A stretch of 17,480 nt of DNA from an uncultured Clostridia bacterium (GTDB taxonomy: Bacteria > Bacillota > Clostridia > Oscillospirales > Oscillospiraceae): assembly GCA_946011705.1 (NCBI GenBank), contig CAMGCA010000011.1, forward strand, positions 1-17,480. The letters run 5' to 3'. Shown here one piece after another: positions 1 through 14,017 of the stretch. Numbering within the stretch: the stretch's first letter is position 1; each line of letters opens with the position of its first letter. A program made the position numbers and the translations under genes. The notes below the pieces were generated by a model. It had not been told where the DNA came from. It was given only the letters and a program-made list of their open reading frames with translations, and did no database searches.

Positions 1-39
1 GACAGAGCCAATGAACTTCGTGTATCCATTGGCTCTGTC
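1..39. terminator. Hairpin at left edge, probable (bidirectional) terminator
   Basis: A perfect 13-bp inverted repeat (arms 1-13 and 27-39, GACAGAGCCAATG and its complement) encloses a 13-nt loop. On the plus strand it is followed by TCTCTTTCC. It lies 65 nt beyond the stop of the minus-strand HflK gene and could also end a plus-strand gene left of the window. The other flank is cut off, so orientation is undecided. Confidence 0.7.
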
Positions 40-104
40 TCTTTCCTGGCATTCGGATAAAATATCGCTTCTCCAGCTAAAGTCCCTACATGAATTTTAT
101 AGCA

Positions 105-1202
105 CTAAGGACCTGCTGTAATCGCTGTGCCACTGATACTGGGATCAAATAGTTTTACATCCACACTGCCGTCAGAGGAATCCACGATGTAAAGTTTGAC
201 TGTGGGCAGAATTTTGTCCAGCGTTTCCAACAGCAGACGGTATTTTGTTGTGTCAGCCGTATAAATGGAGGAATTGTTTTGATACTCCTTCAGCATACTT
301 AGGAATTTCTCGGTATCGCCGGTTGCGCGAGACACCTGCTCCTGCTTATAAGCCTCCGCGTCGGAGATCATACGATTCGCCTCGGCTCGGGCCTGAGGAA
401 TCAGGCTGTTGTAATAGCCATTGGCTTCGTTGATGGAGGTCTCCCGTTCAGACATAGCATTGGTCACATCCAGAAAGGCAGAGGAGACCGGATCAGGCGG
501 AACGACATTCTGAATATTGAAGGCCGTGATCTGAATACCTGCGTCATAACGGTCCAGTGCCTGCTGCGCCAGTTCCATCACGCCGTTCTGGGCAGCCACC
601 TTATCGGTGCTGAGAATGTTGTCCACCGGAACGCTGGCTATAAGCTGCACCAACGCCGCCTCCACACTGTATCGGACCAGCTGCTCGCTGTTACCATTGA
701 CGTTATAGAGAAATTTTGCCGCGTTACTCACCCGATAATGGACAACGCCCTGAGTCGTGATGATGTTTTCATCGGCGGTGAGCAGTTGAATCGCCTGGGG
801 CTCGTCATCCGGCTGGTGAATGTGCTCCGGCAGGGTCATCCCGATGTCCGCCCGGCGCACCTCGGAGACATTGACCGTCTGCACCTTGTCAATGGGCCAA
901 GGCAGGCGGTAGTGTAGCCCCTCAGTCACCGTCTGATCCAGCACCGCTCCGAAACGGCGCACCACAGCCTGTTCGCCGGGGTTAACGATATAGATTCCGG
1001 ATAGCAGATAGACCGCGATTACACCACCCAGCACCACAAGTCCGGCCTTTTTGGGGTTAATGTGTTGAAAAGCGTTTTTCAGATCGTTTCGGACTGTGCC
1101 GTCTTTCTTTCCGTCTGTTTTCCCTGCTTTGGGGATAGCCGCAAGCTGCAGAAAAAACGACTTGATTTTTTCTGGCCATCGATCAAGAGAAAATTTCTTC
1201 AT
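105..1202 (-). CDS. hflK: HflK-type SPFH (band 7) membrane protein
   Basis: A 365-aa protein with a cytoplasmic tail of about 50 residues, one membrane segment at about 53-72 (VVLGGVIAVYLLSGIYIV region), and an SPFH/band-7 domain beginning NPGEQAVVRRFG. A helical region near 255-310 (INEANGYYNSLIPQARAEA, then ATGDTEKF) matches the HflK hallmark. In characterised bacteria HflK and HflC form a large extracytoplasmic cage around the FtsH protease and modulate membrane-protein turnover. The start is an ATG preceded by GAGGAGA about 7 nt upstream. It is the last gene of the five-gene minus-strand unit, 15 nt after hflC. It is a second HflK-like copy, because the CDF fusion upstream also carries an HflK domain. 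FtsH itself is not in the window. Family assignment is firm; partner choice is inferred. Confidence 0.9.
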   Translation of the reverse strand: MKKFSLDRWPEKIKSFFLQLAAIPKAGKTDGKKDGTVRNDLKNAFQHINPKKAGLVVLGGVIAVYLLSGIYIVNPGEQAVVRRFGAVLDQTVTEGLHYRLPWPIDKVQTVNVSEVRRADIGMTLPEHIHQPDDEPQAIQLLTADENIITTQGVVHYRVSNAAKFLYNVNGNSEQLVRYSVEAALVQLIASVPVDNILSTDKVAAQNGVMELAQQALDRYDAGIQITAFNIQNVVPPDPVSSAFLDVTNAMSERETSINEANGYYNSLIPQARAEANRMISDAEAYKQEQVSRATGDTEKFLSMLKEYQNNSSIYTADTTKYRLLLETLDKILPTVKLYIVDSSDGSVDVKLFDPSISGTAITAGP

Positions 1203-1217
1203 AGACAGTTCTCCTCG

Positions 1218-2114
1218 TTACTTACCGCTCCCACCGAGATATTTCAAAATCTCCGCGGTAGAGGGCAGAATCAGCGTCGTGTTGCCGTCGATGGTCTTTT
1301 CATAGGTTTCCAGCGTACGGATAAACTCATAAAACTCCGGGTCCTTCTGGAAGGCTTCACCGTAAATGCGAATGGCCTCGGCGTCACCCTCACCCTTGAT
1401 TTCCTGAACCTTCTGGTAGGCTTCCGCCAAAATGAGCTGCTGTTCCTTCTCCGCATTGGCGCGGATATTGGAGGCTTCCTCGCTGCCCTCGGAGCGATAG
1501 CGCTGGGCCATCTGCTCACGCTCGGCACTCATACGGTCATAAACGCTCTGCTTGTTAGCCTCCGGATAATTCAAGACCCTGATTTGAGCATCCACCACTT
1601 CAATGCCGTACTCCGCAGCCCGCTCCTTTGCGTAAGCCACGGTGTCTGCAATCATGGTATCCAGCTCCAGCTTCTCTGCATTCGTGTTGACCAACTGTTC
1701 CAGCTTGTACTGTCCCAGCTGAACACTCAGGCTGGAGGAAAACACATCCAGTAGCCGGGCCTCAGCTCCAATGTTATCCCTCACTGTTTGCAAAAAGCGA
1801 ATCGGGTCTACGATCTTCCATGTCCCATAGTAGTCCAAAGAGACATTCAGCCGGTCCAAGGTCAACAGTTCGATGGACGAAGTCTGATAAACCTGCACCC
1901 GCTTGTCCAGCCGCTGAACGGACTGGATGGGATCAGGAAGCTTCACCTTTAATCCGGCATCCTCAACTACCCGAACCGGCTGGCCAAACTGGGTGACTAC
2001 CGCGTATTCCGTACTGTCCACCTGGTAGACCACAAGCGTCATAAGCAGCAGGATCAAAGCCACTCCCACTCCAAAGAGAACTGTTTTCTTGGGCGCTCCT
2101 TTTGCCTTTGTCAT
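1218..2114 (-). CDS. hflC: HflC-type SPFH (band 7) membrane protein
   Basis: A 298-aa protein with one N-terminal membrane segment (about 12-30), an SPFH domain from about 33 (DSTEYAVVTQFGQPV), and the HflC signature near 193-215 (RMSAEREQMAQRYRSEG). That is followed by an Ala/Glu-rich helix and a typical HflC end (KDPEFYEFIRTLETYEK, then DGNTTLILP, KYL). Length and motif order are normal for HflC. HflC pairs with HflK in the extracytoplasmic FtsH-regulating cage. The ATG start has GGAGG about 9 nt upstream. It lies 41 nt after the CDF-HflK fusion and 15 nt before the second hflK, so all three SPFH genes are probably co-transcribed. One HflC with two HflK-type partners raises the question of which one it assembles with. 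Confidence 0.92.
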   Translation of the reverse strand: MTKAKGAPKKTVLFGVGVALILLLMTLVVYQVDSTEYAVVTQFGQPVRVVEDAGLKVKLPDPIQSVQRLDKRVQVYQTSSIELLTLDRLNVSLDYYGTWKIVDPIRFLQTVRDNIGAEARLLDVFSSSLSVQLGQYKLEQLVNTNAEKLELDTMIADTVAYAKERAAEYGIEVVDAQIRVLNYPEANKQSVYDRMSAEREQMAQRYRSEGSEEASNIRANAEKEQQLILAEAYQKVQEIKGEGDAEAIRIYGEAFQKDPEFYEFIRTLETYEKTIDGNTTLILPSTAEILKYLGGSGK

Positions 2115-2155
2115 AAATTCGTTCCTCCAAAAGATGAAATTATTTGATGGTGTAT

Positions 2156-3673
2156 TTATTTAGAGCCGTTACCCAGCCAAAGCTCTGCATTGTCTATGGA
2201 GACATTGCCGCCCAGCAAGAGCTTTTGCACATTGGGCAGGACTTCTTCCATGGTTTCCATGTAAAGCCGGAATCGGGTGACCCGGGAGTAGGAGGCATAG
2301 GCTTCCTGACGCTGTGCAAAGAGGTCGGCGTCGCCCTGGGCGGTCTTGATGGTATTCTCCCGATACCCCTCGGCCTCAGCAATCTGCTGATAGGCCTTGG
2401 CCCTGGCCTGGGGTACGATGGTATTTTGATAGGCTGTTGCCTCATTGATGTAGATAACGCTGTCCTGTCGGGCGGTGGCCAGGTCCTCAAAGCTGGAGAG
2501 CACTGCATCCGGAGGGGCAGCCTCCACAAGCTGAACACTCACGATCTCCAAGCCGGTACCGTTCCGATCCATCGCCTCCTGCAATGCCTGTTGGACGGTC
2601 GCCTCGATCTCCGGCTTGCCGTCCGTCAAGGTGTAATCAATGGTGTTTTCCCCAACGATCTGCCGGATACTTGTGGTGGCGCTGGACTGAAGCAAGGCTT
2701 CGGAGTTGCTAACATTCAGCAGGTAATCCGCACTGTTTTGTATCTTATAGTGAACGGACAGATTCACATTGACCAGGTTGGTATCACCAGTCAGCAGTTC
2801 CTGTACGCCGGTCTCCATCTGCCGCACATTATCCGCCCGTACCAGCGTTACCGTTTCGATGGGTGCGGGCAGTTTATAGTGAATACCCGGTGTAACGGCA
2901 TCGTTGACCACGCTTCCGAAACGGCGGACAATGCCGCTCTCGTCCATCTGCACCACATAGATGCCGGACAGGAGCCAAGCACACAGCAATACGCCGCCCA
3001 CGCCGGCATACAGCTTTTTGCCGCCGGGGAGTCCGTGATGCTGATGGTCGTGCTCTCCGTCCGTATCTTCCTCTGGGTGAAGGAGCAGGTGGAGATTGGA
3101 GGACAGTATCTCATAGCCCGCGATCATCAGTAACACCATGGCGATGATTGCAGCAATTTTGTCCAGACTTGGCATTCCGAACAGAGAACCCAGAAGGCCA
3201 ACCAGCACTGCAACAGAGCAGTACATATCCATCTTGGAGTGGTAGCCGTCCGCAATCAGGCTCTGAGAGCCGGTCTGCTGGCCCACATAGATTTTATAAC
3301 GGGCCATGAAATAGTTGATGCCGATGCCGAGGAAAGCGCCTGCCGCCGCAAAGGGAACATAGCGCAGTTCAGTGGTCTCGCCGCTCAGTGCGTCAGACAG
3401 AATCTCCAGTCCCATGTAGAAGATGAATACAGCAACAAAGATTGCCAAAATATGTTCCACCTTTTTGCTGGCCAGCTTCAGTTTGTCCGCACCGTACCGG
3501 GCTACCATCAGTCCGACAAATACCACACTGGTCACGAAGGCATCGGTCATGGAGTGCCATGCGTTGGCTGCAAGGCCGACGCTCCCTGACAAATCAGCCA
3601 GGAAAAAGCGTAGGGCGATCAAAACCACATTGGCAATGATCGTAATGAGCAGAGTTTTTTCTTTACGTCCCAT
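2156..3673 (-). CDS. CDF cation transporter fused to an HflK-type SPFH domain
   Basis: A 505-aa single reading frame. Residues 1-195 form a six-helix cation diffusion facilitator domain with two HxxxD metal sites: H40-D44 (HSMTD, helix 2) and H145-D149 (HSKMD, helix 5), as in Zn-type CDF exporters. The usual cytoplasmic CDF C-terminal domain is missing. In its place are an acidic, His-rich linker (200-213, ending HDHQHH), a seventh membrane segment (about 219-241) and an HflK-like SPFH domain (about 243-490, with INEATAYQNTIVPQARAKA and AQGDADLF). With the CDF N- and C-termini inside, helix 7 would put the SPFH domain outside, as in ordinary HflK. The start at 3673 is chosen because AAGGAGG lies 5 nt upstream; an in-frame ATG at 3697 lacks such a site. 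The gene overlaps the upstream gene by 11 nt. Domain identities are seen by motif; a joint function is inferred. Confidence 0.88.
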   Translation of the reverse strand: MGRKEKTLLITIIANVVLIALRFFLADLSGSVGLAANAWHSMTDAFVTSVVFVGLMVARYGADKLKLASKKVEHILAIFVAVFIFYMGLEILSDALSGETTELRYVPFAAAGAFLGIGINYFMARYKIYVGQQTGSQSLIADGYHSKMDMYCSVAVLVGLLGSLFGMPSLDKIAAIIAMVLLMIAGYEILSSNLHLLLHPEEDTDGEHDHQHHGLPGGKKLYAGVGGVLLCAWLLSGIYVVQMDESGIVRRFGSVVNDAVTPGIHYKLPAPIETVTLVRADNVRQMETGVQELLTGDTNLVNVNLSVHYKIQNSADYLLNVSNSEALLQSSATTSIRQIVGENTIDYTLTDGKPEIEATVQQALQEAMDRNGTGLEIVSVQLVEAAPPDAVLSSFEDLATARQDSVIYINEATAYQNTIVPQARAKAYQQIAEAEGYRENTIKTAQGDADLFAQRQEAYASYSRVTRFRLYMETMEEVLPNVQKLLLGGNVSIDNAELWLGNGSK

Positions 3674-4583
3674 AGGGGCCTCCTTCATCGATTTCAAGAG
3701 AATTACGCAGAGCTGAGATCGCCACCTCCAGTTGTTCCAACGAAGGCTCTCTGGTGGTGATACGCTGCAGCCACAGCCCCGGCGCGGTCGGGATTATCAA
3801 TAGGGGATGGCTGGGATGCTTTCCTGAAAATCGGATGATCTCATAGCCGACGCCGGCAATTGCTGGGAAAAAAAGTAGTTTCATCAATACACGCTCCCAT
3901 ACGCTGTTCCACGAGAAAATGGGCAGCGAGTAAAACAGTATACCGACAAAGATCATCATAAACAGGAAGCTGGTGCCGCAGCGTGGATGGAAACGGGTAT
4001 ATCGGGCGGCGTTTTCCGGAGTCAACGGGTCTCCCGCTTCATAGCAGGCCACCGATTGATGCTCCGCGCCGTGATATGCAAAGGTGCGGCGCATATCAGG
4101 TATCAATGAGGTCAAAAGCAGGTAGACCAGAAGAACGGCAATCCGCACAAATCCCTCCGCAATATTCCGCAACCACACGCTTTTCAGGGGAAGCCAACGG
4201 ACTCCCAGTTTGACTGCCGAGGCGGGCAGAAGCAGAAAAAGCCCCACGCTCAACGCAATGCTGAACACCCAGGCGGCGACACTCAAGAGCCGTTCCAATA
4301 TAGGCGAAGATGTCTGCTCCGGATCGGTCAGCTTCGCTGAAACAGAGAGCACACGTTGCCCCAGAACCAGCATTTGAAAAAAGTTGACGGACCCGCGAAT
4401 GATGGGCAGCCCTAAAACGGTATACCGCTTACTTAATGGCCGGAACAGAACGATTTGCGTTTGGATGCTTCCGTCTGGGCAGCGTACCGAAACAGCACAT
4501 CGGCTGTCTGCTTTCATCATAACGCCGTCCAGAACTGCCTGCCCACCCACGGTACCCAGTCTCGGATTCTGAGCGCCGCTCAC
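3663..4583 (-). CDS. DUF1385 (YqhQ-like) integral membrane protein
   Basis: A 306-aa multi-pass membrane protein with the DUF1385 signatures: GGQAVLDGVMMK (residues 13-24), YHGAEHQSVACYE (170-182) and RFHPRCGTS (197-205). Hydrophobic segments lie near 100-122, 145-161, 205-222 and 232-250. The family (YqhQ in Bacillus) is widespread in Firmicutes and its biochemical role is not established; the conserved His, Glu and Cys residues could bind a metal, but that is a guess. The start is GTG at 4583 with AAGGAG 7 nt upstream, overlapping the foldase stop codon as GTGA, which implies translational coupling. Its own 3' end contains the ribosome binding site and start of the CDF-HflK gene. The family is often near prmC/prfA in other Firmicutes (background knowledge); here it sits in a quality-control operon instead. 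Confidence 0.88.
   Translation of the reverse strand: MSGAQNPRLGTVGGQAVLDGVMMKADSRCAVSVRCPDGSIQTQIVLFRPLSKRYTVLGLPIIRGSVNFFQMLVLGQRVLSVSAKLTDPEQTSSPILERLLSVAAWVFSIALSVGLFLLLPASAVKLGVRWLPLKSVWLRNIAEGFVRIAVLLVYLLLTSLIPDMRRTFAYHGAEHQSVACYEAGDPLTPENAARYTRFHPRCGTSFLFMMIFVGILFYSLPIFSWNSVWERVLMKLLFFPAIAGVGYEIIRFSGKHPSHPLLIIPTAPGLWLQRITTREPSLEQLEVAISALRNSLEIDEGGPYGT
3679..3685 (-). promoter_or_regulatory. Ribosome binding site that fixes the CDF-HflK start
   Basis: AAGGAGG on the minus strand ends 5 nt before the ATG at 3673 and lies inside the 3' end of the DUF1385 gene. It favours this ATG over the in-frame ATGs at 3688 and 3697. Confidence 0.8.
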
Positions 4584-6754
4584 GATGCAGCTCCTTGTTC
4601 CATTTCCTTGACCAGCCGGCGCAGGGTCTTATCGAAGATCACCAGATCGACGCGTTCCAACAGTGTCTTCTGCATATCCGCTTCCAGCTGTTCATGTTGC
4701 TGGGCCTGCAAGTGAGCCTTAATGGTATCGGCCACTTCTTCAAAGGACTGCTGCCGTTCTTCCGTACGCTCCCGAACCTGCACGATATAATATCCGCCGT
4801 TGTATTCCACGATAGGGCTGATCCCGCCGACGGCCAACGGTTCAATGGCCTGCGCCAATGGCTTGGCCAGATCCTCCACATGGAAGGAGCCGGAGATCTG
4901 CCCGCCGTTGGAGGCGGCAGAGGAGTCCTCGGAATACTGCCGTGCAGCGGTGGCAAAATCCATACCTCCGTTCAGCGCGTCCTGGGCGCTGCGCGCTTTG
5001 GCAAGGGCATCCTCTTTTTTCTCCCCGTTCGTTCCCTGGTCAATCCAAATCAGATTTAACTGCAAGGATGCGGGAACAACCATATCCTTCTGGTTTTCCT
5101 CATAGAATTGGCGGATCTCCTCCTCTGTTGGCTCTTCCATCTGGTTATCCACCTCGTCCTGATGCAGAATTTGGGCCAGATAACGGATACGAAGTTCCTC
5201 CATGCTGTGATCCTCTCCGGTACTGGAACCGTCGCCGCTTTTCTCCAGCAACAGTTCCTGTGCGATGATCTGTTCCAAAAGCTGCTGTTTCATTTCAAAG
5301 CTGGAGAACTGACGCTGATAGGCGGGGGAAAGCTCCTGGAATTCAGTATAAAAATCTCCAAGGGTGTAACGGCGGCTGTGAATACTGAACAGGGTCTCTG
5401 TCTTTCGTGTCTCATACTCTGTGGCCGTTTTCTCCGACAAAAGTTTCCATGTGATTTCTTCCTGGACCTCAGAGAGAGGCCGCACCCCGGAATTAGACAG
5501 TCCTGTCAGTTCCAAAATGCTCCAGCTCCCGTCACCGTTGTCGATGGGGTCGCTGACCTGTCCAGCCTTCATCTGCCACAGGGTGTTTTCTTTGACTTTC
5601 GGACCAGTACCCTTTTCTATGGAGCCGTCAGATGCTCCGCCGTTGGAAGCGGCTACGCTGTCAAAAGCCTCTCCGGATCGCAACTTACGACTGGCTGCGG
5701 TAGCTTGGGTGTCGGCGTTGTCACCGGAAAACTTAATCTCACGGAATTTGGCCGTAGGAGCCGTTTCGTAATCGGACTGGTTGGTCTGATAATAGGCTGC
5801 GATTTCAGCCTGCGTGGGCTGGGTCACTTTAAGAAGGTCAAAATTCACCTGCAAGCCCGCGGTCTTCTTCAGTTCATCCAGATATTCAGTAAAGAAATCT
5901 TCGTCCTTCTGCGCCGCCAGCGTTCTCCGGATCTCGTTCTCTACCTCCGGCAATGTTTTCCCTGCATACGCACTCTGATTATTGTCGTAATACTTTTGCA
6001 CCTCCCAGCTGGAAATGGATTCCGGGGAGACATTCTCCTCATGGAGCTGGGAAATGTATTGAGTGACCATGGCATCATTGAGCAGATCGGACATTCCATG
6101 GCGCACATCGGACCGCTGAGTGATTCCGCTGCTTTCCGCCCAAGAGACGATCATCTGCTCTGTGGCTAAACGGGAAACCATTTCCCGGTAGCCCTCCAGC
6201 GTATGGACTGGGTGGGCCTCGCACTCCTCATCTGGTGTGCATTTTGTGTGGTCATACCCGTGGGTGGGACAGATGATATGCTCCCGCTCCTTGGCGTTTT
6301 CCACTGCGATAAAGGCGTTTAGCTCCTCCACGGTGATATTTTTTCCGTTATAGGATGCCACCACATCCGGACTGGGAGGTTCCGGCTCCCGTGTTAAAAG
6401 GAACCACACCCCCATAGCAATTACCGCCGCGATGCCAATCACAGGAAATAACCAACGCCTCTTTTTCTTGGGAACGGGCAGTTCTTCATAGAGGGAAATC
6501 TCCTCTGATTCCACATCTGTATATTCGAGTGGTAGTTCCGGCTGCGCTCGTTGCCCCCATCCGGAGGCTTTGACTTCCTGTTCCAACGGGCTTTCGCCAT
6601 CCGGGACAGATTCCCTTTCTGGCTTGTTCCGAATATCTTCCTGTTTACCGGGCCGCTGCGCTTTTGGCTTGAAACCCAGCGCACCCAACATATCAGATAA
6701 TGCGGAGGGCTGTTCTTCTTCCGGAAAATTCTCAGGTTTGTTCTTTTCGTCCAT
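4580..6754 (-). CDS. Membrane-anchored foldase with two parvulin-type PPIase modules
   Basis: A 724-aa type II membrane protein. Residues 1-100 are an acidic cytoplasmic tail ending in KKKRR. One membrane segment lies at about 101-121, and the rest is extracytoplasmic. The outer part looks duplicated, with two rounds of a SurA/PrsA-like helical chaperone segment and a parvulin-like domain. The first parvulin region (about 333-418) is diverged. The second (about 560-662) is more typical (MDFATAARQYSED, NGGQISG, GGISPIVEYNGGYYIVQV). Such proteins catalyse prolyl isomerisation and help secreted proteins fold. There is no lipobox, unlike PrsA lipoproteins. A Cys/His-rich insertion sits at residues 160-185. 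The ATG start has GGAGGAG 4 nt upstream. It is the first gene of the minus-strand unit and overlaps the DUF1385 gene by 4 nt. Activity of the first parvulin module is uncertain. Confidence 0.85.
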   Translation of the reverse strand: MDEKNKPENFPEEEQPSALSDMLGALGFKPKAQRPGKQEDIRNKPERESVPDGESPLEQEVKASGWGQRAQPELPLEYTDVESEEISLYEELPVPKKKRRWLFPVIGIAAVIAMGVWFLLTREPEPPSPDVVASYNGKNITVEELNAFIAVENAKEREHIICPTHGYDHTKCTPDEECEAHPVHTLEGYREMVSRLATEQMIVSWAESSGITQRSDVRHGMSDLLNDAMVTQYISQLHEENVSPESISSWEVQKYYDNNQSAYAGKTLPEVENEIRRTLAAQKDEDFFTEYLDELKKTAGLQVNFDLLKVTQPTQAEIAAYYQTNQSDYETAPTAKFREIKFSGDNADTQATAASRKLRSGEAFDSVAASNGGASDGSIEKGTGPKVKENTLWQMKAGQVSDPIDNGDGSWSILELTGLSNSGVRPLSEVQEEITWKLLSEKTATEYETRKTETLFSIHSRRYTLGDFYTEFQELSPAYQRQFSSFEMKQQLLEQIIAQELLLEKSGDGSSTGEDHSMEELRIRYLAQILHQDEVDNQMEEPTEEEIRQFYEENQKDMVVPASLQLNLIWIDQGTNGEKKEDALAKARSAQDALNGGMDFATAARQYSEDSSAASNGGQISGSFHVEDLAKPLAQAIEPLAVGGISPIVEYNGGYYIVQVRERTEERQQSFEEVADTIKAHLQAQQHEQLEADMQKTLLERVDLVIFDKTLRRLVKEMEQGAAS

Positions 6755-6802
6755 AGTGCTCCTCCATATCTTGGTGGGTTTCTATCGGGGAGTATAAAGA
6801 AT

Positions 6803-6853
6803 AAATGTGGGGATTTTATGAGGACAGTAAATCTTCATAAAATCCCCACATTT
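6803..6853. repeat. 19-bp perfect inverted repeat in the divergent intergenic region
   Basis: The arms at 6803-6821 and 6835-6853 (AAATGTGGGGATTTTATGA and its exact complement) flank a 13-nt spacer. It lies between two divergent start codons, so it is not at the 3' end of either neighbour. Neither side carries a real run of T. The right arm overlaps the candidate -10 of the minus-strand foldase operon. It could be an operator, a leader attenuator, or a terminator shielding divergent transcripts. Confidence 0.75.
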
Positions 6854-6877
6854 TACGGGTAAACTTCAAGTTGTAAA
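6850..6877 (-). promoter_or_regulatory. Candidate promoter of the foldase-HflKC unit
   Basis: On the minus strand TTTACA (6877-6872) and TAAAAT (6855-6850) are separated by 16 nt; each differs from consensus at one base. The -10 lies within the right arm of the 19-bp inverted repeat. It would give a leader of roughly 90 nt before the ATG at 6754. Confidence 0.45.
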
Positions 6878-6928
6878 TCCAGAAGGGAACAGCTCACTCC
6901 CAAACTGGTATTTTTTATCAGGCCCGAT

Positions 6929-6945
6929 TGTAACCGTTTTGTAAC
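6929..6945 (+). promoter_or_regulatory. WalR-type (YycF) binding box
   Basis: TGTAAC, five bases (CGTTT), TGTAAC exactly fits the established WalR direct-repeat consensus TGT(A/T)A(A/T/C)-N5-TGT(A/T)A(A/T/C). It ends 25 nt before the start of a wall-peptidase gene, the class of gene that WalRK controls in Bacillus and Staphylococcus. An extended -10-like TGGTATTTT at 6906-6914 would place the box just downstream of transcription start, which would suggest repression. That promoter is weak evidence. Confidence 0.6.
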
Positions 6946-6970
6946 TATTGGAAGGAGGACTTTTTCTTAT

Positions 6971-8308
6971 ATGCCCCCCATGAAAAGGAAAGTTAAAACC
7001 GCAGCGGTTTTACTTTCAGCCTTAGCGCTGATCCCGTCCCTTACAGTTGGACTTCTTTATACGCCTGCCTATGCAGTCAGTATAGACGGCGAACATCTGG
7101 GCGTCGTGTCCGATACAGAGACCGCGCGGCGGGCTGTGGAGTCTGCACAGGCCGAAGTTGAAAATGCCATAGGCTCATCCGCCTCCATCGCGGAAGCTGT
7201 TTCCGTTGGCTGGACAGTGGTCAGCAAAGAGGAGCTTGTCTCGGAGGAGGAACTGGCCGAGCGTTTGCTGGAGCAGGTGGAGGAGATTCAGGAGGGCTAT
7301 GTTCTCTCTGTTGGTGACGCAGATGTAGGATTTGCCCTGGCCAAGGAAACTCTTGAGGCCATACTGGACAAGCTTTCTTCTCCTTATCAAAATGAAAACA
7401 CAAAGGAAATACACTTTGAGCCGGAGGTTTCTATTCAATACGGACATGTATCCACTGAGGTTACCGATGATCCTGAGCAGATTTATGCTACACTTACCTC
7501 AAATTCCATTGAGGCCGCTTCCTACACAGTGACATCCGGGGATACCTTTTCTGAAATTGCCGCGAGTCTGGATATGCGGCAGCGAGAGCTGTCTGAACTG
7601 AACCCATCTGTTGATCCCAATGTACTGATGATTGGGGATGTGCTGAATATCCGTCAAGCAATCCCTTTTCTCTCTGTTGTGACAGTGGATGAGATCACCT
7701 ATACAGAACCAACCCCTGCCCCGATAGAGTATGTAGAGGACGCCTCGCTCTACAAGGGTGATTCCAAGGTCCTGTCGAAAGGTATGGAAGGAGAAAACTG
7801 GGTTCGCGCCGAGGTGACGTATCAGAACGGAACAGAGACCGCTCGGACGATCCTGGAGTCAAAAGTTCAGAAGGAGCCGGAGAAAAAGGTAGTTGCTACC
7901 GGGACGAAAGAACGTCCTGCCACATCATCCAAAGGCACCTACATCTGGCCGGTGAACGGCACCGTTACATCGTCTCCAGGCTCTCGGTCTTTATTCGGAA
8001 GCAAGGAATACCATGCTGGACTGGACATTGCTGTTCCCTACGGGACAAAAGTCAAAGCCGCTGATGGCGGAACGGTCAGCTTCGCCGGCTGGAAAGGTGA
8101 CTACGGCAACCTGGTCATTATTACTCATGACGATGGAACACAGACCTATTACGCACACAACTCTACTCTGCTGGTTTCCAAGGGTGACTCCGTTTACCAA
8201 GGACAAGCTATAGCCAAAGCGGGGTCCACTGGGCGGTCCACCGGAAGCCACTGCCATTTCGAGGTCCGTGTAAATGGGAAAGTACAAAATCCCTACAACT
8301 ATCTCTGA
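6971..8308 (+). CDS. Secreted LysM-G5-M23 peptidoglycan endopeptidase
   Basis: A 445-aa protein with an N-terminal signal or anchor segment (about 8-35, with AYA near the end). The region 36-180 holds two related repeats (starting VSIDGEHLGVV and VLSVGDADVGF). A LysM domain follows at about 184-228 (YTVTSGDTFSEIA), then a G5-like domain at about 232-312 and a C-terminal M23 peptidase at about 326-445. Zinc and catalytic residues are visible: H348-xxx-D352 (HAGLD), H396 (YYAHN) and H427-C-H429. M23 enzymes cleave peptide cross-bridges in peptidoglycan, and LysM and G5 give wall binding. The start at 6971 is chosen from GGAAGGAGGA about 12 nt upstream; ATG 6980 is a possible alternative but more distant. 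A perfect WalR-like box lies just upstream. The gene diverges from the foldase unit and has a hairpin at its stop codon. Confidence 0.9.
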   Translation: MPPMKRKVKTAAVLLSALALIPSLTVGLLYTPAYAVSIDGEHLGVVSDTETARRAVESAQAEVENAIGSSASIAEAVSVGWTVVSKEELVSEEELAERLLEQVEEIQEGYVLSVGDADVGFALAKETLEAILDKLSSPYQNENTKEIHFEPEVSIQYGHVSTEVTDDPEQIYATLTSNSIEAASYTVTSGDTFSEIAASLDMRQRELSELNPSVDPNVLMIGDVLNIRQAIPFLSVVTVDEITYTEPTPAPIEYVEDASLYKGDSKVLSKGMEGENWVRAEVTYQNGTETARTILESKVQKEPEKKVVATGTKERPATSSKGTYIWPVNGTVTSSPGSRSLFGSKEYHAGLDIAVPYGTKVKAADGGTVSFAGWKGDYGNLVIITHDDGTQTYYAHNSTLLVSKGDSVYQGQAIAKAGSTGRSTGSHCHFEVRVNGKVQNPYNYL

Positions 8309-8341
8309 ACGATCCATCTTGAAATGGATGCAGATCGTTTT
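8308..8341 (+). terminator. Weak hairpin terminator after the M23 gene
   Basis: AACGATC at 8308-8314 pairs with GATCGTT at 8333-8339, with a nested ATCCAT/ATGGAT alternative pairing, followed by TTTT (8338-8341). It overlaps the last base of the stop codon. The stem is bulged and the T-run short, so efficiency is uncertain. Confidence 0.4.
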
Positions 8342-8448
8342 GCGGTCTGGATTTGGTAATTCGGTTTTCTCGATCATAACAGCCTTGCGGGCAATGAAAT
8401 CGACAGACTGATCCTATACGATGTCTGGTGCAGTATCTCGCTGTCTGA

Positions 8449-8476
8449 TTGACATTACCTACCAAGGTGATATGAT
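8449..8476 (+). promoter_or_regulatory. Sigma-A-type promoter for the MoxR-VWA pair
   Basis: TTGACA (8449-8454, perfect -35) and TATGAT (8471-8476, one mismatch to TATAAT) are separated by 16 nt. They lie 35 nt before the ATG at 8512 and give a short leader containing AAGGAGGT. The remainder of the 203-nt gap between the M23 gene and this gene shows only the terminator hairpin. Confidence 0.75.
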
Positions 8477-8511
8477 ATAAAGTACAGGCGGTGTCTGAAG
8501 GAGGTATCCAC

Positions 8512-9423
8512 ATGTTGGACTTTTTGAAAAACGAGGGTGTCAGCCCAAAAATCATCTCCGAAATTGAGGCTTTTCGGGCAAAGTATCCCACGGTAGGAAA
8601 CCTTTCCAAGCGTGTTCCGGTACCAAGATATCTCTACTACGGCAAGGATGTGTGGGAGGAGGCCATTACCGCTCTGCTGTGCGGCGAAAACCTGCTGTTG
8701 GTGGGTCCCAAAGCCACCGGCAAGAACGTGTTGGCGGAGAATCTGTCTGCTGTATTTGACCGCCCCAGTTGGGACGTGTCCTTTTACATTAACACTGACG
8801 CCGCTACCCTCCTGGGCACGGACACCTTCCACGACGGCGAAGTGACGCTGCGGAAGGGTCCCATCTACCAATGCGCGGAGTTTGGCGGCTTTGGCATCTT
8901 GGATGAGATCAACATGGCAAAAAACGAATCCTTGGCGGTGCTCCATGCCACACTGGACTTCCGTCGGGCCATCGACATGCCCGGATATGACCGCATCAGT
9001 CTCCACGACGCCACCAGATTCATCGCCACAATGAACTACGGCTACGCCGGCACGCGGGAGTTAAACGAAGCACTGGCCTCCCGGTTCGTGGTCATCGACA
9101 TGCCAGCCATCACCGCCGAGGGGCTGGTGAAGCTGCTGCGCCGGGAGTTCACAGACCTGAAACCCGAATGGGCCGAACAATTGGCAGGCTTGTTCCAGGA
9201 TATTCAGCGTAAATGCGATGGCGGCGAACTTTCCACAAAGTCCTTGGATCTCCGTGGCCTGTTGGCCGCCGTGCGGCTAATGCGTGCTGGTCTGGAGGGC
9301 AACCGGGCGTTGGAGATGGGCATGGTCAACAAATCCTTTGACGGCTTTGAGCGCCAGTTGGTCAATGATGTCATCCAAGCGCGTTTCCCTGAGCAAATCA
9401 CCTATGAGGATGTGTTCAACTGA
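8512..9423 (+). CDS. MoxR/CbbQ-NorQ-like AAA+ ATPase
   Basis: A 303-aa AAA_5-type ATPase. Walker A is at residues 65-72 (GPKATGKN), Walker B at 126-132 (FGILDE), sensor-1 Asn at 175 (FIATMN), and a candidate Arg finger at 191 (ASRF). The usual Ser/Thr after the Walker A lysine is Asn. MoxR-type ATPases (RavA, NorQ, CbbQ) act with VWA proteins as chaperones that activate or metallate enzymes, and a VWA gene follows directly. The start at 8512 is set by AAGGAGGT 6 nt upstream; an in-frame GTG at 8491 precedes that site and is rejected. The stop codon overlaps the next start (TGATG). Substrate unknown. ATP use is expected from the family, but the Walker A Asn should be considered. Confidence 0.85.
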   Translation: MLDFLKNEGVSPKIISEIEAFRAKYPTVGNLSKRVPVPRYLYYGKDVWEEAITALLCGENLLLVGPKATGKNVLAENLSAVFDRPSWDVSFYINTDAATLLGTDTFHDGEVTLRKGPIYQCAEFGGFGILDEINMAKNESLAVLHATLDFRRAIDMPGYDRISLHDATRFIATMNYGYAGTRELNEALASRFVVIDMPAITAEGLVKLLRREFTDLKPEWAEQLAGLFQDIQRKCDGGELSTKSLDLRGLLAAVRLMRAGLEGNRALEMGMVNKSFDGFERQLVNDVIQARFPEQITYEDVFN

Positions 9424-11138
9424 TGGACATTCTGGACAGTGAGAAACGCCGCGCCCGGAATATCATCTGGAATGCCGCCAGAGATTACAGCTTTGAGCCG
9501 GAATTCAAGGTGTATGATGAGGATGGCCGAGCAGACCTTTACTGGAACAGCATCATCGGCGCGGCCCGCAAAAACTACGGAGCAGATACAATTGATGCGT
9601 TGTTTTCCGCCCTGCATAATACAGATCAGGAGGAGTTATATGAGCAGCTGGTGTGGCTGGGCTTGGAAAACGCCGTCTACCAACGGGAGGCTCTCCACCG
9701 TCCGGCACTGCCTGCGCTGCGGCGGAGCTATGCAAAACGTGTCCTGTCCCACATCGGTCCGGTTCCCTCGGAGGAACTCCCCGTTCTTCTGGAGGAGGCT
9801 CATTTTCGCCGGGTGCTGGGCGAGACACCATATTTAATGCCTCGTGAGCGGGCCATGCTGGACGCATTGGAGTTTTCCGGCGATTTGGAGGGTGCCGAGC
9901 TCGCCCGCGAATTGCTGGATTTTCTCAGAACATTCTGCCATTTTGCCCCTGGAAATCATGAAAGCACGAAGGAGTCCGAGAAGAAGCCTCCCATATTACG
10001 AAAGTTTTTTCGAAAGATTTCCGGAAAGCCGTCTTCGGTCCACAGCTTTTGGCATGGATACAGTGAACATTCCGCCATCGGCCAAGGCGGCAGTGACACA
10101 GAACCGCTTCAGCGGCGTTTGAGCGATAAAAGTCTTGCGCAGTCAGAGGTAGCCATTCGGAAATTCATCCAGGACTATTTTGGGCAGCCACTGTATGATC
10201 CGGGCAAGACGGCGGAGTTGGAGCATGAGCTTTGCGTCGATGCCCATCGGCTCTGTCATCTGTACTTCGCCAAAGGGGATGATACCTGGGATAAAAATAT
10301 TCGGGGCTTTGCCGGCGCACGGCGCAAGGAAGCGCTGAAGTTGATGAAGCTCAACAGAGCTGTCTACGATGAGGATGCCGTCAGACACCGGGCCAGCATC
10401 GTCCGTCTTACTGCCCGAATTAAACACGCCATGATGGCCTATTTACAGCCAACTGTCCTCCGTTCCTCCTCCGGCTCTTTGGATAGCAGCCGGATATGGC
10501 GGGCCGTATATCTGGATGATGAAAAAGTCTTTACGAAAATTCAGCAATCCGACCCAGGTAATCTCTCTGTGGACATTCTGCTGGATGCCTCAACCTCTCA
10601 GCAAGGGCGTCAGGCAACGGTGGCAGCCCAGGGATATATGATTGCCGAGGCGCTGACTCGCTGTCAAATCCCTGTCCGGGTTTCCTCTTTCTGTTCTATC
10701 AGCGGCTATACTGTCGTCACCAGGTACCGAGACTATCAGGAAACCGACCGGAATGATAGAATCTTCAATTACTTTACCGCAGGCTGTAATCGGGACGGCC
10801 TGGCTATTCGTGCGCTGAAAAAAGGGCTGGAAGACTCCCCATGTGAACATAAGCTGGTGATCCTTCTCTCGGATGTCAAACCAGACGACGTCATCAAAAT
10901 GTATCAAAACGGCAACTATGTGGATTATGCTGAGGCCAACGGGATTCAAAATACGGCTATTGAAGTGCGTTCCCTCCTGAAACTGGATATCTCCGTCATC
11001 TGCGTGTTTACCGGGAACGACAAGGACGTCCCTGCTGCCCACACCATCTACGGGCGGAATTTTGCCCGTATCCGGTCTTTGGATCAGTTTGCCGATACAG
11101 TGGGAACCCTCATTCAAAACCAAATTAGAAGTTTTTAA
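9423..11138 (+). CDS. VWA-domain protein (NorD/CoxE/ViaA-like partner of the MoxR ATPase)
   Basis: A 571-aa soluble protein. Its N-terminal about 340 residues are mostly helical with no recognised domain. The C-terminal VWA domain (about 380-565) has a MIDAS: D388-A-S390-T-S392, the NRDG loop at 456-459, and D484 in LLSDVKPDD. This matches NorD- or ViaA-type partners of MoxR ATPases, in which the VWA domain binds the client protein through a metal ion. A basic stretch near 187-202 (KKPPILRKFFRKISGK) separates two parts of the N-terminal region. The ATG overlaps the stop of the ATPase gene by one base, so translation is coupled. No nitric-oxide reductase, rubisco or cobaltochelatase gene is nearby, so the client is unknown. 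It is followed by a strong hairpin. Confidence 0.8.
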   Translation: MDILDSEKRRARNIIWNAARDYSFEPEFKVYDEDGRADLYWNSIIGAARKNYGADTIDALFSALHNTDQEELYEQLVWLGLENAVYQREALHRPALPALRRSYAKRVLSHIGPVPSEELPVLLEEAHFRRVLGETPYLMPRERAMLDALEFSGDLEGAELARELLDFLRTFCHFAPGNHESTKESEKKPPILRKFFRKISGKPSSVHSFWHGYSEHSAIGQGGSDTEPLQRRLSDKSLAQSEVAIRKFIQDYFGQPLYDPGKTAELEHELCVDAHRLCHLYFAKGDDTWDKNIRGFAGARRKEALKLMKLNRAVYDEDAVRHRASIVRLTARIKHAMMAYLQPTVLRSSSGSLDSSRIWRAVYLDDEKVFTKIQQSDPGNLSVDILLDASTSQQGRQATVAAQGYMIAEALTRCQIPVRVSSFCSISGYTVVTRYRDYQETDRNDRIFNYFTAGCNRDGLAIRALKKGLEDSPCEHKLVILLSDVKPDDVIKMYQNGNYVDYAEANGIQNTAIEVRSLLKLDISVICVFTGNDKDVPAAHTIYGRNFARIRSLDQFADTVGTLIQNQIRSF

Positions 11139-11183
11139 GGATTCAAGCTATCGGAACGGCTCCTATCTGCGAGCTGAAGGCGA

Positions 11184-11228
11184 AAGCACAGCGGAAATTC
11201 AAACCTGCTTTGAATCTCCGCTGTGCTT
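11184..11228. terminator. Long hairpin between convergent genes, probable bidirectional terminator
   Basis: AAGCACAGCGG (11184-11194) pairs perfectly with CCGCTGTGCTT (11218-11228). The stem continues through ATTCAAA/TTTGAAT past one mismatch to a CCTGC loop. It lies between the plus-strand VWA gene (ends 11138) and the minus-strand ArsR gene (ends 11265). T-runs on both sides are weak. Confidence 0.65.
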
Positions 11229-11264
11229 ATATATGTGGTGAAAACGCTCGTTTGGTTATAAAAT

Positions 11265-11594
11265 TCAGGATCTTTTCTCTGCATTTTCTGCAAGATATTC
11301 CAGCCCTGTTTCCATGATCGCCCTTATGCTTTGGTTCGCTGCGGAGTAAAACATTTGTTTTCCATTCCTGCGCTGCACTACCATTTTATGTGCCTTCAGA
11401 ATGTTTAATTGGTGGGAAACTGCGGATTGTGTCATCTGTAGATGGCTCGCCAGCTCAGTCACACAGATTTCCCGCTCTAAGAGGACGGAAATTAGCCGGG
11501 TTCGGGTGGGATCTCCCAGCACCCGGAAAAAATCCGCCAAAGCGGGAGAGAGCTGTAAATCGTATAGGCTGTTCTCTCTATCGTGATCGTTCAT
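11265..11594 (-). CDS. ArsR/SmtB-family metal-responsive repressor (downstream copy)
   Basis: A 109-aa winged-helix repressor with FRVLGDPTRTRLISVLL (about 23-39) and the recognition helix QMTQSAVSHQLNILK (about 53-67). The ArsR family represses metal-resistance genes until metal binds. The helix-3 motif is EICVTEL, with only one Cys of the usual CVC pair. The last helix (ANQSIRAIMETGLEYLAE) lacks the Asp/His ligands of SmtB/CzrA-type zinc sites, so the inducer is unclear. The start at 11594 fits the usual family length but has no clear Shine-Dalgarno. A longer frame from 11681 is rejected because it would run 29 residues into a hairpin region and the end of the ATPase gene. It is third in the HMA-ATPase-ArsR operon. 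Confidence 0.8.
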   Translation of the reverse strand: MNDHDRENSLYDLQLSPALADFFRVLGDPTRTRLISVLLEREICVTELASHLQMTQSAVSHQLNILKAHKMVVQRRNGKQMFYSAANQSIRAIMETGLEYLAENAEKRS

Positions 11595-11607
11595 TTTATT
11601 TATGAGC

Positions 11608-11637
11608 AGGGTGCGGCCAATTACTTGTCCGCACCCT
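11608..11637 (-). repeat. 9-bp inverted repeat between cadA and arsR
   Basis: AGGGTGCGG (11608-11616) pairs perfectly with CCGCACCCT (11629-11637) around a 12-nt loop. It lies after the cadA stop and 13 nt before the arsR start. There is no T-run on the minus strand, so it is more likely an mRNA stability or attenuation element than a strong terminator. Confidence 0.5.
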
Positions 11638-11646
11638 CCATTTCCT

Positions 11647-13530
11647 TTACAGATTATGAACCCGAAGCGCCCGGATGGCATTCAGGACTGCAATTACGGT
11701 AACGCCCACGTCAGCAAAAATTGCAAGCCACATGTTGGCTCTGCCCACTATGCCCAGCGCAAGGCAGATAAACTTGACAACCAGTGCGAGCGTAATGTTC
11801 TGATAGACGATGGAGATGCACTTTCGGGATATTTTGATGCCCTTTGCGATCTTCATGGGGTCATCATCCATCAGCACTACGTCTGCGGCCTCAATAGCCG
11901 CGTCGGAACCCATAGCGCCCATGGCGATGCCAATATCCGCCCGGCCCAACACAGGGGCGTCGTTGATGCCGTCGCCCACAAATGCCAGTTTCGCTTTCGG
12001 GGACTTTGCAGCCAGCAGTTTCTCCACTTCGGAAACTTTATCGCCGGGAAGCAGCTCGCTATGAACTTCGTCCACACCCAGATTCGCCGCTACCTGTTCG
12101 GCCACTCGTTTGGCGTCGCCGGTCAACATGACCGTCTTTTCCACGCCTGCCTTCTTCAGAGCGGCGATGGCGGCCTTGGAATTGGGCTTCTCAATATCAG
12201 AAATGAGAATGTGTCCCGCATATTCGCCGTTGATGGCTACATGAATGATAGTGCCAACCGAGTGGCAGTCCGCATACGAGATCCCCAGACGGGTCATTAG
12301 CTTTGCGTTGCCGGCTGCTACCTCAACGCCATCCACCTTGGCGATCAGTCCGTGGCCGCTAATTTCTTCAATGTCTGTTACACGGCTGCGATCAATCTCT
12401 TTTCCATAAGCTTTCTGCAAGCTCTTGCTGATAGGATGGGAGGAGGAGCACTCCGCCAGGGCAGCGTATTCCAACAGCTTCTGTTCTTCCATCGTGTTGT
12501 GATGGATACCGTTGACTTCAAATACGCCCTGGGTCAAGGTGCCGGTCTTATCGAATACCACCACTTTGGTCTGGGAGAGTGTTTCCATATAGTTGGAGCC
12601 TTTGATCAGGACACCCTCCTTGCTGGCACCGCCGATACCCGCGAAAAAGCTCAGCGGTACGCTGACCACCAACGCACAGGGACAGCTGATCACCAGGAAG
12701 GTCAGGGCGTTGTAGATCCAGATGGCCCAGTTGGCGGGGTTCCCCATGAGAAGATTTCCGATGGGAGGCAGCACCGCCAGCAGAAGTGCGGCTATACAGA
12801 TCACAGGCGTGTAGATCTTGGCAAACTTGGAAATGAAGTTCTCCGACTTGGATTTCCGGGAGCTGGACTCCTCCACGAGTTCCAGGATCTTAGAAACCGT
12901 GGACTCTCCGAATTCCTTTGTGGTCTGGATTCTCAGTACGCCGGTCATATTGATACAGCCACTGATCACCTCGTCACCGGCCTTCACTTCACGGGGCAGG
13001 CTTTCTCCGGTCAGCGCACTGGTATTCAGGGCAGAGTTACCTTCCGTGACGGTGCCGTCGATGGGGACCTTTTCACCGGGCTGCACCACGATCACACTGC
13101 CGATCGCCACCTCATCGGGATCGACCTTTTCCAATTGGCCGTTCCGCTCGATATTGGCGTAATCCGGACGGATGTCCATCAGCGCGGTGATATTCCTGCG
13201 GCTCTTTCCTACGGCGTAGCTTTGGAACAACTCACCGACCTGATAGAACAGCATTACGGCAATGGCCTCGTTGTAATCGCCGCTTCTTTCGTAGGTAGAC
13301 AATGCAATGGCTCCAATCGTGGCCACGGCCATCAGAAAATTCTCGTCAAAGACCTGGCCGTTCAGGATGCCCTTTCCTGCCTTTCTCAGAATATCATAAC
13401 CAATAATCAGATAGGCGGCCAGATAGAGCGCCATTTTGAGTTCGCTGGGAAGTGTAATGAAATTCAAACCGACCAGCAGCGCGGCGGTAATCAAAATTCG
13501 TACCAGCATCACAGTTTGCTTTTTGCTCAT
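11647..13530 (-). CDS. cadA: P1B-type heavy-metal (Zn/Cd/Pb) efflux ATPase without N-terminal HMA domain
   Basis: A 627-aa ATPase with all P1B landmarks: TGES actuator loop (174-177), CPC metal site in the membrane (283-285), phosphorylation site DKTGT at D327, SSSHP nucleotide-binding motif (H365), GDGIND hinge, and a final helix pair with K..., then DVG. The CPC plus DxG pattern points to the Zn2+/Cd2+/Pb2+ subgroup rather than copper. It exports toxic divalent metal from the cytoplasm. The protein starts only about 10 residues before the first membrane segment, so the usual N-terminal HMA domain is absent; a stand-alone HMA protein is encoded just upstream. ATG at 13530 with AGGGAGGG about 6 nt upstream. 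The metal is inferred from motifs; cadA/zntA naming is by family. Confidence 0.9.
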   Translation of the reverse strand: MSKKQTVMLVRILITAALLVGLNFITLPSELKMALYLAAYLIIGYDILRKAGKGILNGQVFDENFLMAVATIGAIALSTYERSGDYNEAIAVMLFYQVGELFQSYAVGKSRRNITALMDIRPDYANIERNGQLEKVDPDEVAIGSVIVVQPGEKVPIDGTVTEGNSALNTSALTGESLPREVKAGDEVISGCINMTGVLRIQTTKEFGESTVSKILELVEESSSRKSKSENFISKFAKIYTPVICIAALLLAVLPPIGNLLMGNPANWAIWIYNALTFLVISCPCALVVSVPLSFFAGIGGASKEGVLIKGSNYMETLSQTKVVVFDKTGTLTQGVFEVNGIHHNTMEEQKLLEYAALAECSSSHPISKSLQKAYGKEIDRSRVTDIEEISGHGLIAKVDGVEVAAGNAKLMTRLGISYADCHSVGTIIHVAINGEYAGHILISDIEKPNSKAAIAALKKAGVEKTVMLTGDAKRVAEQVAANLGVDEVHSELLPGDKVSEVEKLLAAKSPKAKLAFVGDGINDAPVLGRADIGIAMGAMGSDAAIEAADVVLMDDDPMKIAKGIKISRKCISIVYQNITLALVVKFICLALGIVGRANMWLAIFADVGVTVIAVLNAIRALRVHNL

Positions 13531-13631: not shown

Positions 13632-13850
13632 TCAAAGCTCAATCTCACAGTCAGGCTCTACCTTTTTGCAGGCTTTCAGGACCGCCTGCATGACATCCTT
13701 CGGCTCCTGGCCCTCCTGAAACTCCACGATCATCTTCTGGGTCATGAAGTTGACGGTAGCTGCGGCGACACCAGGGGTCTTTCTGGCGGCATCTTCCATC
13801 AGGTTGGCGCAGTTGGCGCAGTCGACTTCGATCTTATAGGTCTTCTTCAT
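13632..13850 (-). CDS. Stand-alone HMA-domain metallochaperone
   Basis: A 72-aa protein that is one HMA domain with the metal-binding loop D10-C11-A-N-C14 and the usual beta-alpha-beta pattern (KTYKIEVD, then GVAAATVNFMTQKMIVEF). An acidic residue directly before CxxC is typical of Zn/Cd/Pb-ATPase metal-binding domains rather than copper chaperones. Extra cysteines lie at 61 and 68. It probably delivers or senses metal for the ATPase encoded next, replacing that protein's missing N-terminal domain. The start at 13850 is set by GAGAGGAG about 8 nt upstream; the open frame extends further 5' but without a usable site. First gene of the minus-strand metal operon, divergent from an ArsR gene. Confidence 0.88.
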   Translation of the reverse strand: MKKTYKIEVDCANCANLMEDAARKTPGVAAATVNFMTQKMIVEFQEGQEPKDVMQAVLKACKKVEPDCEIEL

Positions 13851-13880
13851 AGGGATAGCTCCTCTCAAAATATTACATTT

Positions 13881-13902
13881 ATCAATCAAGCACTTGTTTA
13901 AT
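13881..13902. promoter_or_regulatory. Dyad operator candidate in the divergent ArsR/HMA control region
   Basis: ATCAATCAAG, CA, CTTGTTTAAT forms a 10-2-10 dyad with 8 of 10 positions symmetric. It covers the -35 of the plus-strand arsR promoter and lies 31 bp from the HMA start. A flanking ATTGAT at 13901-13906 repeats the outer half-site. This resembles CadC/ArsR-type operators, so one of the two ArsR proteins may bind here. Confidence 0.45.
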
Positions 13903-13922
13903 TGATTTGATTGCAGTATGAT
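13894..13922 (+). promoter_or_regulatory. Candidate promoter of the divergent arsR gene
   Basis: TTGTTT (13894-13899) and TATGAT (13917-13922) are separated by 17 nt. The -35 is weak and lies within the dyad, consistent with an activated or repressed promoter. The rest of the 167-nt gap to 14017 shows only the ribosome binding site. Confidence 0.45.
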
Positions 13923-14017
13923 AGATTTACAAAGGGAAGTCAATACTCTGCGGCGGCTTCCTTCCAAACGAGAAAAAAGCATTTCCAAAACAGATAATTT
14001 TTGAGGAGGAATCCATA

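Follow-up and report, generated by a model that had tools for sequence, protein, structure and literature searches.

In an uncultured Clostridia bacterium of the gut, a metal-ion exporter and a subunit of a membrane protein-quality-control cage are joined as one protein. The gene lies on the minus strand, at positions 2156 to 3673, of a 17,480-nucleotide stretch of contig CAMGCA010000011.1 (assembly GCA_946011705.1), hereafter referred to as the window, and encodes the transmembrane domain of a cation diffusion facilitator (CDF) followed by the SPFH domain of HflK. Distant bacteria carry the same joined protein, in the same gene cluster and often near metal-resistance genes, which points to a connection of metal export with the upkeep of proteins that has not been described before. 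No paper on a CDF-HflK fusion was found in a full-text literature search, assessed by titles and the beginnings of abstracts and with most subscription journals outside its coverage.

The CDF-HflK Fusion Protein

The fusion is encoded by a single open frame of 505 residues plus stop (ATG at 3673, stop at 2156-2158), with a Shine-Dalgarno sequence, AAGGAGG (3679-3685, minus strand), located five bases upstream of the ATG. Both halves are recognised in Pfam, by Cation_efflux at residues 8-198 (90.4 bits against a cut-off of 26.6) and Band_7 at 240-414 (82.7 against 23.6), as well as in NCBIfam, by the CDF model TIGR01297 at 5-199 (102.9 against 82.35) and the hflK model TIGR01933 at 238-489 (225.8 against 159.4), such that a single protein passes both NCBI models at their curated cut-offs. 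Reading along the minus strand, the CDF transmembrane domain (residues 1-200; 3074-3673) is followed by a His-rich linker (201-217; 3023-3073), predicted from topology to be cytosolic, a seventh transmembrane helix (218-236; 2966-3022), which aligns with the helix region of E. coli HflK from residue 79 on, and the SPFH/HflK domain (237-505; 2159-2965), whose profile alignment to E. coli HflK extends up to residue 345.

The two metal-site motifs, HSMTD (H40, D44) and HSKMD (H145, D149), supply the ligands of site A in TM2 and TM5, all four of which are invariant in the 84 aligned fusions; at least three histidines are found in the linker columns of 76 of these. An Mn-type CDF was rejected on the grounds that the site is HD/HD and not four Asp. 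The ZT_dimer domain is usual in the CDF family, albeit not required, and is present in 26 of 28 distant CDF entries (P0165-P0192). In the fusion, no Pfam match to ZT_dimer (PF16916) was obtained, and the usual CDF cytoplasmic domain is therefore absent. The AlphaFold2 model (mean pLDDT 67.3, pTM 0.40) contains six helices between residues 3 and 198, a low-confidence linker at 203-218, the seventh helix at 218-235, and SPFH strands from 237 to 386. In the available part of PMC12005517, one N-terminal transmembrane helix is described as the sole membrane part of the HflK family; the fusion departs from this description in having six CDF helices in front.

None of the eight in-frame ATG, GTG, or TTG codons within codons 196-300 is preceded by a Shine-Dalgarno-like sequence, and the production of a separate HflK from an internal start was thus rejected. 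Purifying selection acts on both halves, with a dN/dS versus Flavonifractor of 0.012/0.70 for the CDF half and 0.032/0.70 for the HflK half. Given the invariant metal site and the former value, a degenerate and merely structural CDF half is unlikely. An earlier sequence-only reading of the window had described one in-frame protein with six CDF helices bearing both motifs, the loss of the CDF cytoplasmic domain, a seventh helix leading into an HflK-like SPFH domain, and no internal ribosome binding site at the junction, all of which agree with the above results.

Distribution of the Fusion

A protein search with 7997 scored candidates returned 223 relatives at E 1e-10 or better, and both domains are present in 119 of the 120 matches listed, the window's own row (P0002) being counted and P0071 being the exception. 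Where a source name is given, it is usually FtsH protease activity modulator HflK or membrane protease subunit HflK; as annotation mostly names these proteins HflK, the CDF half goes unseen. A scan of species genomes yielded 35 loci, of which L061 is a weak stray match and the other 34 were analysed. The isolates among the carriers, going by their titles, are Flavonifractor, Faecalicatena, Anaerospora, and three Desulfosporosinus, and the metagenome-assembled genomes (MAGs) are labelled Lachnospiraceae, Synergistaceae, Poribacteria, and Actinomycetota (the last label, that of L056, possibly being out of date, as its genome falls in a phylum group of only 82 genomes). Two fusion copies are present in the L056 genome (G464), and a further copy is carried on a 147-kb contig of G884, which belongs to the same phylum group. 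The sequence-only reading had proposed looking for the same architecture in protein databases, and the searches made here have now placed it in distant groups with common neighbours.

In a tblastn search of plasmids, a conjugative plasmid from the alphaproteobacterium Aquibium oceanicum was found to carry the fusion at full length (38% identity), this record being the only one of 78 plasmid matches to cover at least 80% of the query. No more plasmid copies emerged when the Aquibium fusion itself was used as the tblastn query, as only its own record, among 61 matched, covered 80%. A plasmid-borne hflK of E. coli (H8) was rejected as an ordinary hfq-hflX-hflK-hflC region without a CDF, and a scan of viral contigs for phage carriage gave no relative.

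The fusion is rare and patchy in its prevalence. It was found in two of the 37 genomes of the window's own genus (G000, the window's host, and G032), in two of 82 from the phylum group of G884 and L056, and in four of 29, one of them cut by a contig end, from the genus of Desulfosporosinus sp. HMP52; only the window's own genome matched at 1e-60 among 398 sampled from its phylum.

The Conserved Operon and Its Partners

Five closely packed genes on the minus strand of the window encode, in order, a peptidyl-prolyl isomerase (PPIase), a DUF1385 protein, CDF-HflK, HflC, and a second HflK (HflK2). HflC (1218-2114; 298 residues) scores 194.6 bits with TIGR01932 (cut-off 134.4), and HflK2 (105-1202; 365 residues), which lacks a CDF domain, scores 203.6 bits with TIGR01933 (cut-off 159.4). 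Three SPFH genes in a row were found in 28 of the 34 loci by clustering and in three more by direct translation, the row being cut by contig ends in the remaining three. The PPIase gene is upstream of the fusion in 32 of the 34 loci and in pieces in the other two; the Aquibium order differs, with the PPIase after HflK2. In the protein database, the longest contig of 18 of the 72 PPIase clusters has exactly the same size as that of some listed fusion cluster, a match that covers only cases where contig data permit the comparison. The DUF1385 gene, identified by Pfam (3663-4583), lies between the PPIase gene and the fusion and overlaps both; its cluster, c9, occurs in four of the 34 loci (L027, L028, L029, and L051). 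A database protein, P0259, combines PPIase and DUF1385 in one chain, two domains that adjoin in the window too.

The PPIase (4580-6754, minus strand; 724 residues) is a membrane-anchored, PrsA/SurA-like protein with two PPIC-type stretches. Its model (pLDDT 79) displays a transmembrane-like helix at residues 103-120 and repeated PrsA/SurA-like chaperone and PPIase parts; this two-module reading draws on the two Pfam stretches and on repeated secondary structure judged by eye, fold-search rows spanning both modules having a root-mean-square deviation of 9-25. Soon past the helix, at residues 159-181, is the motif H-x2-C-x2-HG-x2-H-x2-C-x5-C-x2-H (H159, C162, H165, H169, C172, C178, and H181; 6212-6280, minus strand), predicted from topology to be just outside the membrane. 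It is found in 64 of 72 relatives, and the Cys/His columns are retained in 30 of 32 PPIase locus copies, including those labelled Synergistaceae and Poribacteria. The cluster constitutes a putative extracytoplasmic metal site.

Each of the six isolates encodes exactly two HflKs over the model cut-off, both within the operon, with weaker SPFH hits elsewhere in two of them (up to 116.5 bits against a cut-off of 159.4). An HflK/C cage, if made in these isolates, would thus consist of operon products. FtsH is encoded in all eight genomes tested, the six isolates included. The window's host, a MAG of 372 contigs (73% complete, 3.36% contamination), also encodes an ordinary HflK/HflC pair on another contig, C98. 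Positions 1-11673 of the window match a contig from a different MAG (L051) at 99.93% identity, and 8.2 kb of this part matches Flavonifractor at 82%; either transfer or misbinning may lie behind this. Another multi-helix HflK form was observed at L062 887-2674 (G033:C23), where a 595-residue HflK-like protein (Band_7 at 289-476; TIGR01933 91 bits, below the cut-off) has a long N-terminal region without a Pfam match that looks polytopic by eye; HflC-like and HflK-like genes come after it.

In a tree of 59 rows (24 fused HflKs, 23 HflK2s, and 12 plain HflKs, after the removal of 14 identical rows of 73), the fused HflKs form one group (99/94) and the HflK2s another (100/97), their internal branching being similar by eye. 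The plain HflKs comprised ten from relatives, one from C98 of the window's host, and that of E. coli, and the tree was midpoint-rooted for drawing. The fusion copy labelled Synergistaceae is nested among Clostridia copies. On the simplest reading, the fusion would have arisen once and the operon genes would then have been transferred together, with horizontal transfer as the probable cause of the patchy spread. The grouping could shift with wider sampling because plain HflKs are few and some branches are long, namely those of E. coli, both Aquibium rows, and both L056 rows.

Metal-Resistance Genes and Signs of Mobility in the Neighbourhood

Of the 34 loci, 13 encode a heavy-metal P-type ATPase or part of such an ATPase, 15 encode ArsR-cluster regulators, 16 encode at least one of these two, and 17 encode a member of the sensor-kinase cluster. 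The ATPases were recognised by their DKTGT and CPC motifs or by clustering, only that of L054 being scanned with NCBIfam, and the ArsR and kinase counts represent BLAST clusters c4 and c3 instead of member-by-member scans. When fusions that agree at 98.5% across their first 150 residues are joined, the 34 loci reduce to 25 groups, nine of which contain the ATPase. The background of 32 ATPase hits in 37.8 Mb, from 19 genomes of window relatives, corresponds to about 0.4 expected across the 34 loci, which total 457 kb, an expectation taken from window relatives and not from carriers, and with copper-type hits included.

The window, Aquibium, and G884 lie outside the above counts. In the window, an ArsR/SmtB-family regulator (11265-11681, minus strand; NF033788 87.7 bits, cut-off 55) is accompanied by a Zn/Cd-type P1B ATPase (11647-13530, minus strand; TIGR01512 495.3 bits, cut-off 313.5), a frame with a heavy-metal-associated (HMA) domain (13632-14102, minus strand), and a second ArsR/SmtB-family regulator (14018-14383, plus strand; NF033788 77.7 bits, cut-off 55). 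A sensor histidine kinase (15468-16862, minus strand), scoring 213.4 bits with the heavy-metal sensor model TIGR01386 and hence below its cut-off of 292.55, and a response regulator (16879-17412, minus strand) complete the set. The Aquibium neighbourhood includes a Zn/Cd-type ATPase, copper chaperones, SCO, DsbB, and an Nramp gene; G884 has a Zn/Cd-type ATPase on one flank and pieces of another on the opposite flank, together with the end of a CusA/CzcA-type RND gene. Past the operon in L043 (12245-17503) are the arsenic genes ArsR-type, Acr3, ArsD, and ArsA-like. A DegP-type protease gene is present in L056, and a ZupT-like gene, below that model's cut-off, in L039; L053 encodes an M16 peptidase together with a sensor kinase that exceeds the cut-off of the heavy-metal model. 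Serine recombinases downstream of the operon (L051 14032-15951; L029 12715-16151, the latter locus also with a PemK-like toxin gene) suggest an integrative element.

Several further genes were seen in these islands. An AAA_5 ATPase and CobT_C/VWA pair stands beside the module both in the window (8491-11138, plus strand; Pfam-scanned) and in L064 (3427-6090, minus strand; judged by eye). L064 (G000:C38) is a second island in the window's host MAG, comprising, again by eye, a P-type ATPase, ArsR-like and AraC-like regulators, the AAA/VWA pair, a PPIase, and, where the contig stops, the beginning of a further CDF-HflK. In the Flavonifractor locus, a small secreted-looking protein with CTxDHDH repeats (L029 2229-2621, minus strand) is encoded between the ArsR end and the operon; its L028 copy gave no Pfam match.

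Proposed Function and Alternative Explanations

CDF-HflK is probably, though with appreciable room for doubt, a functional exporter of the Zn2+ (Zn/Cd) type that forms a covalent part of an HflK/C-type cage, within a horizontally spread module for envelope proteostasis under metal stress. Metal stress would lead to the production of the PPIase, CDF-HflK, HflC, and HflK2, and Zn2+ or a similar ion would leave the cytosol through the six-helix CDF domain via site A in a proton-coupled manner, with site A perhaps being loaded by the His-rich linker. The chain would then cross the membrane via the seventh helix; as this helix equals that of HflK, the topology of HflK and CDF proteins would place the CDF amino end and the linker in the cytosol, with the SPFH domain on the outside. 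There, the SPFH domain would co-assemble with HflC and HflK2 into a ring, which in E. coli encloses FtsH. The exporter would thus sit within the cage's own membrane patch and, with a CDF at each fused position, exporters would be placed in the ring wall; the ring may stand in for the lost cytoplasmic CDF domain in dimerisation. The membrane-anchored PPIase, which has a Cys/His cluster in most copies, would act as a folding helper beside the metal exit and might bind the metal that is pumped out, or sense it. The sequence-only reading had likewise envisaged a metal-coupled quality-control assembly; the conserved operon, the invariant CDF metal site, and the metal-resistance neighbours speak for the assembly, and its proposal of metal delivery into the cage may be one of several options. 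A bolder form of this idea, which we put forward tentatively and doubt more than we believe, is that the metal-exporting ring subunits release toxic metal into a walled chamber holding the Cys/His foldase and FtsH, thereby protecting the envelope. Such an arrangement, if true, would represent a new class of mobile machine in which the envelope is shielded while proteins are repaired or removed. The exporter-in-cage reading itself would tie metal export physically and directly to the quality control of membrane proteins.

A number of observations weigh against the exporter-in-cage reading. The coiled coil is weakly modelled by AlphaFold2, most of residues 410-505 being below pLDDT 50. Separate full-length CDFs over the cut-off were found in all nine genomes or records checked (at least one in each of the six isolates), and the fusion is therefore not the sole CDF; two MAGs (G460 and G461) encode a further ordinary HflK. 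Neither an ATPase nor an ArsR-cluster gene is present in 18 of the 34 loci, many of these stretches being short. The PPIase Cys/His cluster is missing in L039 and L056, and the annotated Aquibium PPIase, possibly annotated from a late start, has no Cys; the cluster is hence not part of the core. Lastly, of the close CDF-part entries, 43 in number (P0122-P0164; both domains are listed for P0148 and P0158), about 13 stop, by eye, in or just after the His-rich linker (P0125, P0126, P0129, P0134, P0135, P0136, P0138, P0139, P0141, P0144, P0145, P0152, and P0153), two lying on contigs 52 and 160 kb long, and may be split gene versions. P0135, searched against 391 genomes, and P0153, searched against 82, matched only fused frames of 508-526 residues. 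The sequence-only reading had held that homologues consistently encoded as two genes would speak against it; no such consistency was seen, with these 13 or so entries as a reservation.

An assembly or annotation artefact at the junction might be suspected from the 372-contig MAG in which the window resides and from the 35 of 37 genus genomes without the fusion, but its probability is next to nil and, for the architecture, it is already refuted by the six isolates, the complete plasmid, and the 119 of 120 matches listed; the assembly error considered in the sequence-only reading is thereby ruled out. The strongest rival, which we nonetheless hold to be unlikely, is a plain metal-efflux pump whose HflK half is a new oligomerisation scaffold, with no link to FtsH or quality control. 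The loss of the cytoplasmic domain from the CDF and the nearby ATPase, ArsR, and other metal genes would suit such a pump; the retention of HflC, a full second HflK, and the PPIase in the operon across distant groups, and the operon holding the only HflKs over the cut-off in the six isolates, would not. Less probable again is a sensor or gate, in which binding at site A reshapes the ring and opens or closes the cage to FtsH substrates with little transport. Opening has been seen in E. coli HflK/C rings and a metal-sensing FtsH adaptor, YqgP, exists, as far as the available parts of PMC12048511 and PMC7231995 extend, but site A retains all four of the ligands that transporters have. We give little credence to a metallation device that passes exported Zn2+ to the Cys/His PPIase or to secreted metalloproteins as they fold at the cage: the position of the PPIase cluster soon past the predicted helix and its wide retention would fit, but it is missing in Aquibium, L056, and L039, and the nearby metal genes are chiefly for export or resistance, the exceptions being the ZupT-like gene in L039 and Nramp in Aquibium.

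Comparison with Known Systems

The closest known system is the E. coli HflK/HflC-FtsH complex (7vhp, 7wi3, and 9cz2). Residues 219-488 of the fusion profile align with residues 79-345 of HflK (208.9 bits), an HflC gene directly follows the fusion, and FtsH is encoded in the eight genomes tested; the fusion differs in its six extra CDF helices, the second HflK and PPIase in its operon, and its patchy distribution. The E. coli rings consist of 24 subunits, HflK alternating with HflC, and one side of the ring can be open, according to the available part of PMC12048511. In B. subtilis, YqgP-FtsH similarly ties Mn/Zn toxicity to FtsH-linked membrane quality control, whereas YqgP is a rhomboid protease for which the available part of PMC7231995 describes neither a CDF nor an SPFH domain.

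Unlike CDF exporters such as YiiP/FieF and the ZnT proteins, the fusion is devoid of ZT_dimer and its His-rich linker leads into an HflK domain. Proteostasis genes can also share an island with kefB, the product of which is an antiporter. The transmissible locus of stress tolerance is such a mobile island, but is distinguished by sHsp20, clpK, and hdeD and by a role in heat and chlorine stress, as described in the available part of PMC8407380. ClpK and small heat-shock protein models gave no Pfam match in the 15 window proteins scanned, sequence beyond the window being unscanned for them.

Stomatin domes are built on the cytosolic side of the membrane. The domes around AQP1 or UT-B are alike in principle to the proposed cage, having an SPFH ring with a transporter in its membrane patch, but the partners are separate there, as far as described in the available part of PMC12407830, whereas the transporter is part of the ring subunit in the fusion. 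CDF-HflK would offer a ready-made test of why transporters are surrounded by SPFH cages, and genetics and structural work are possible since the fusion operon is the only over-cut-off HflK set in six isolates.
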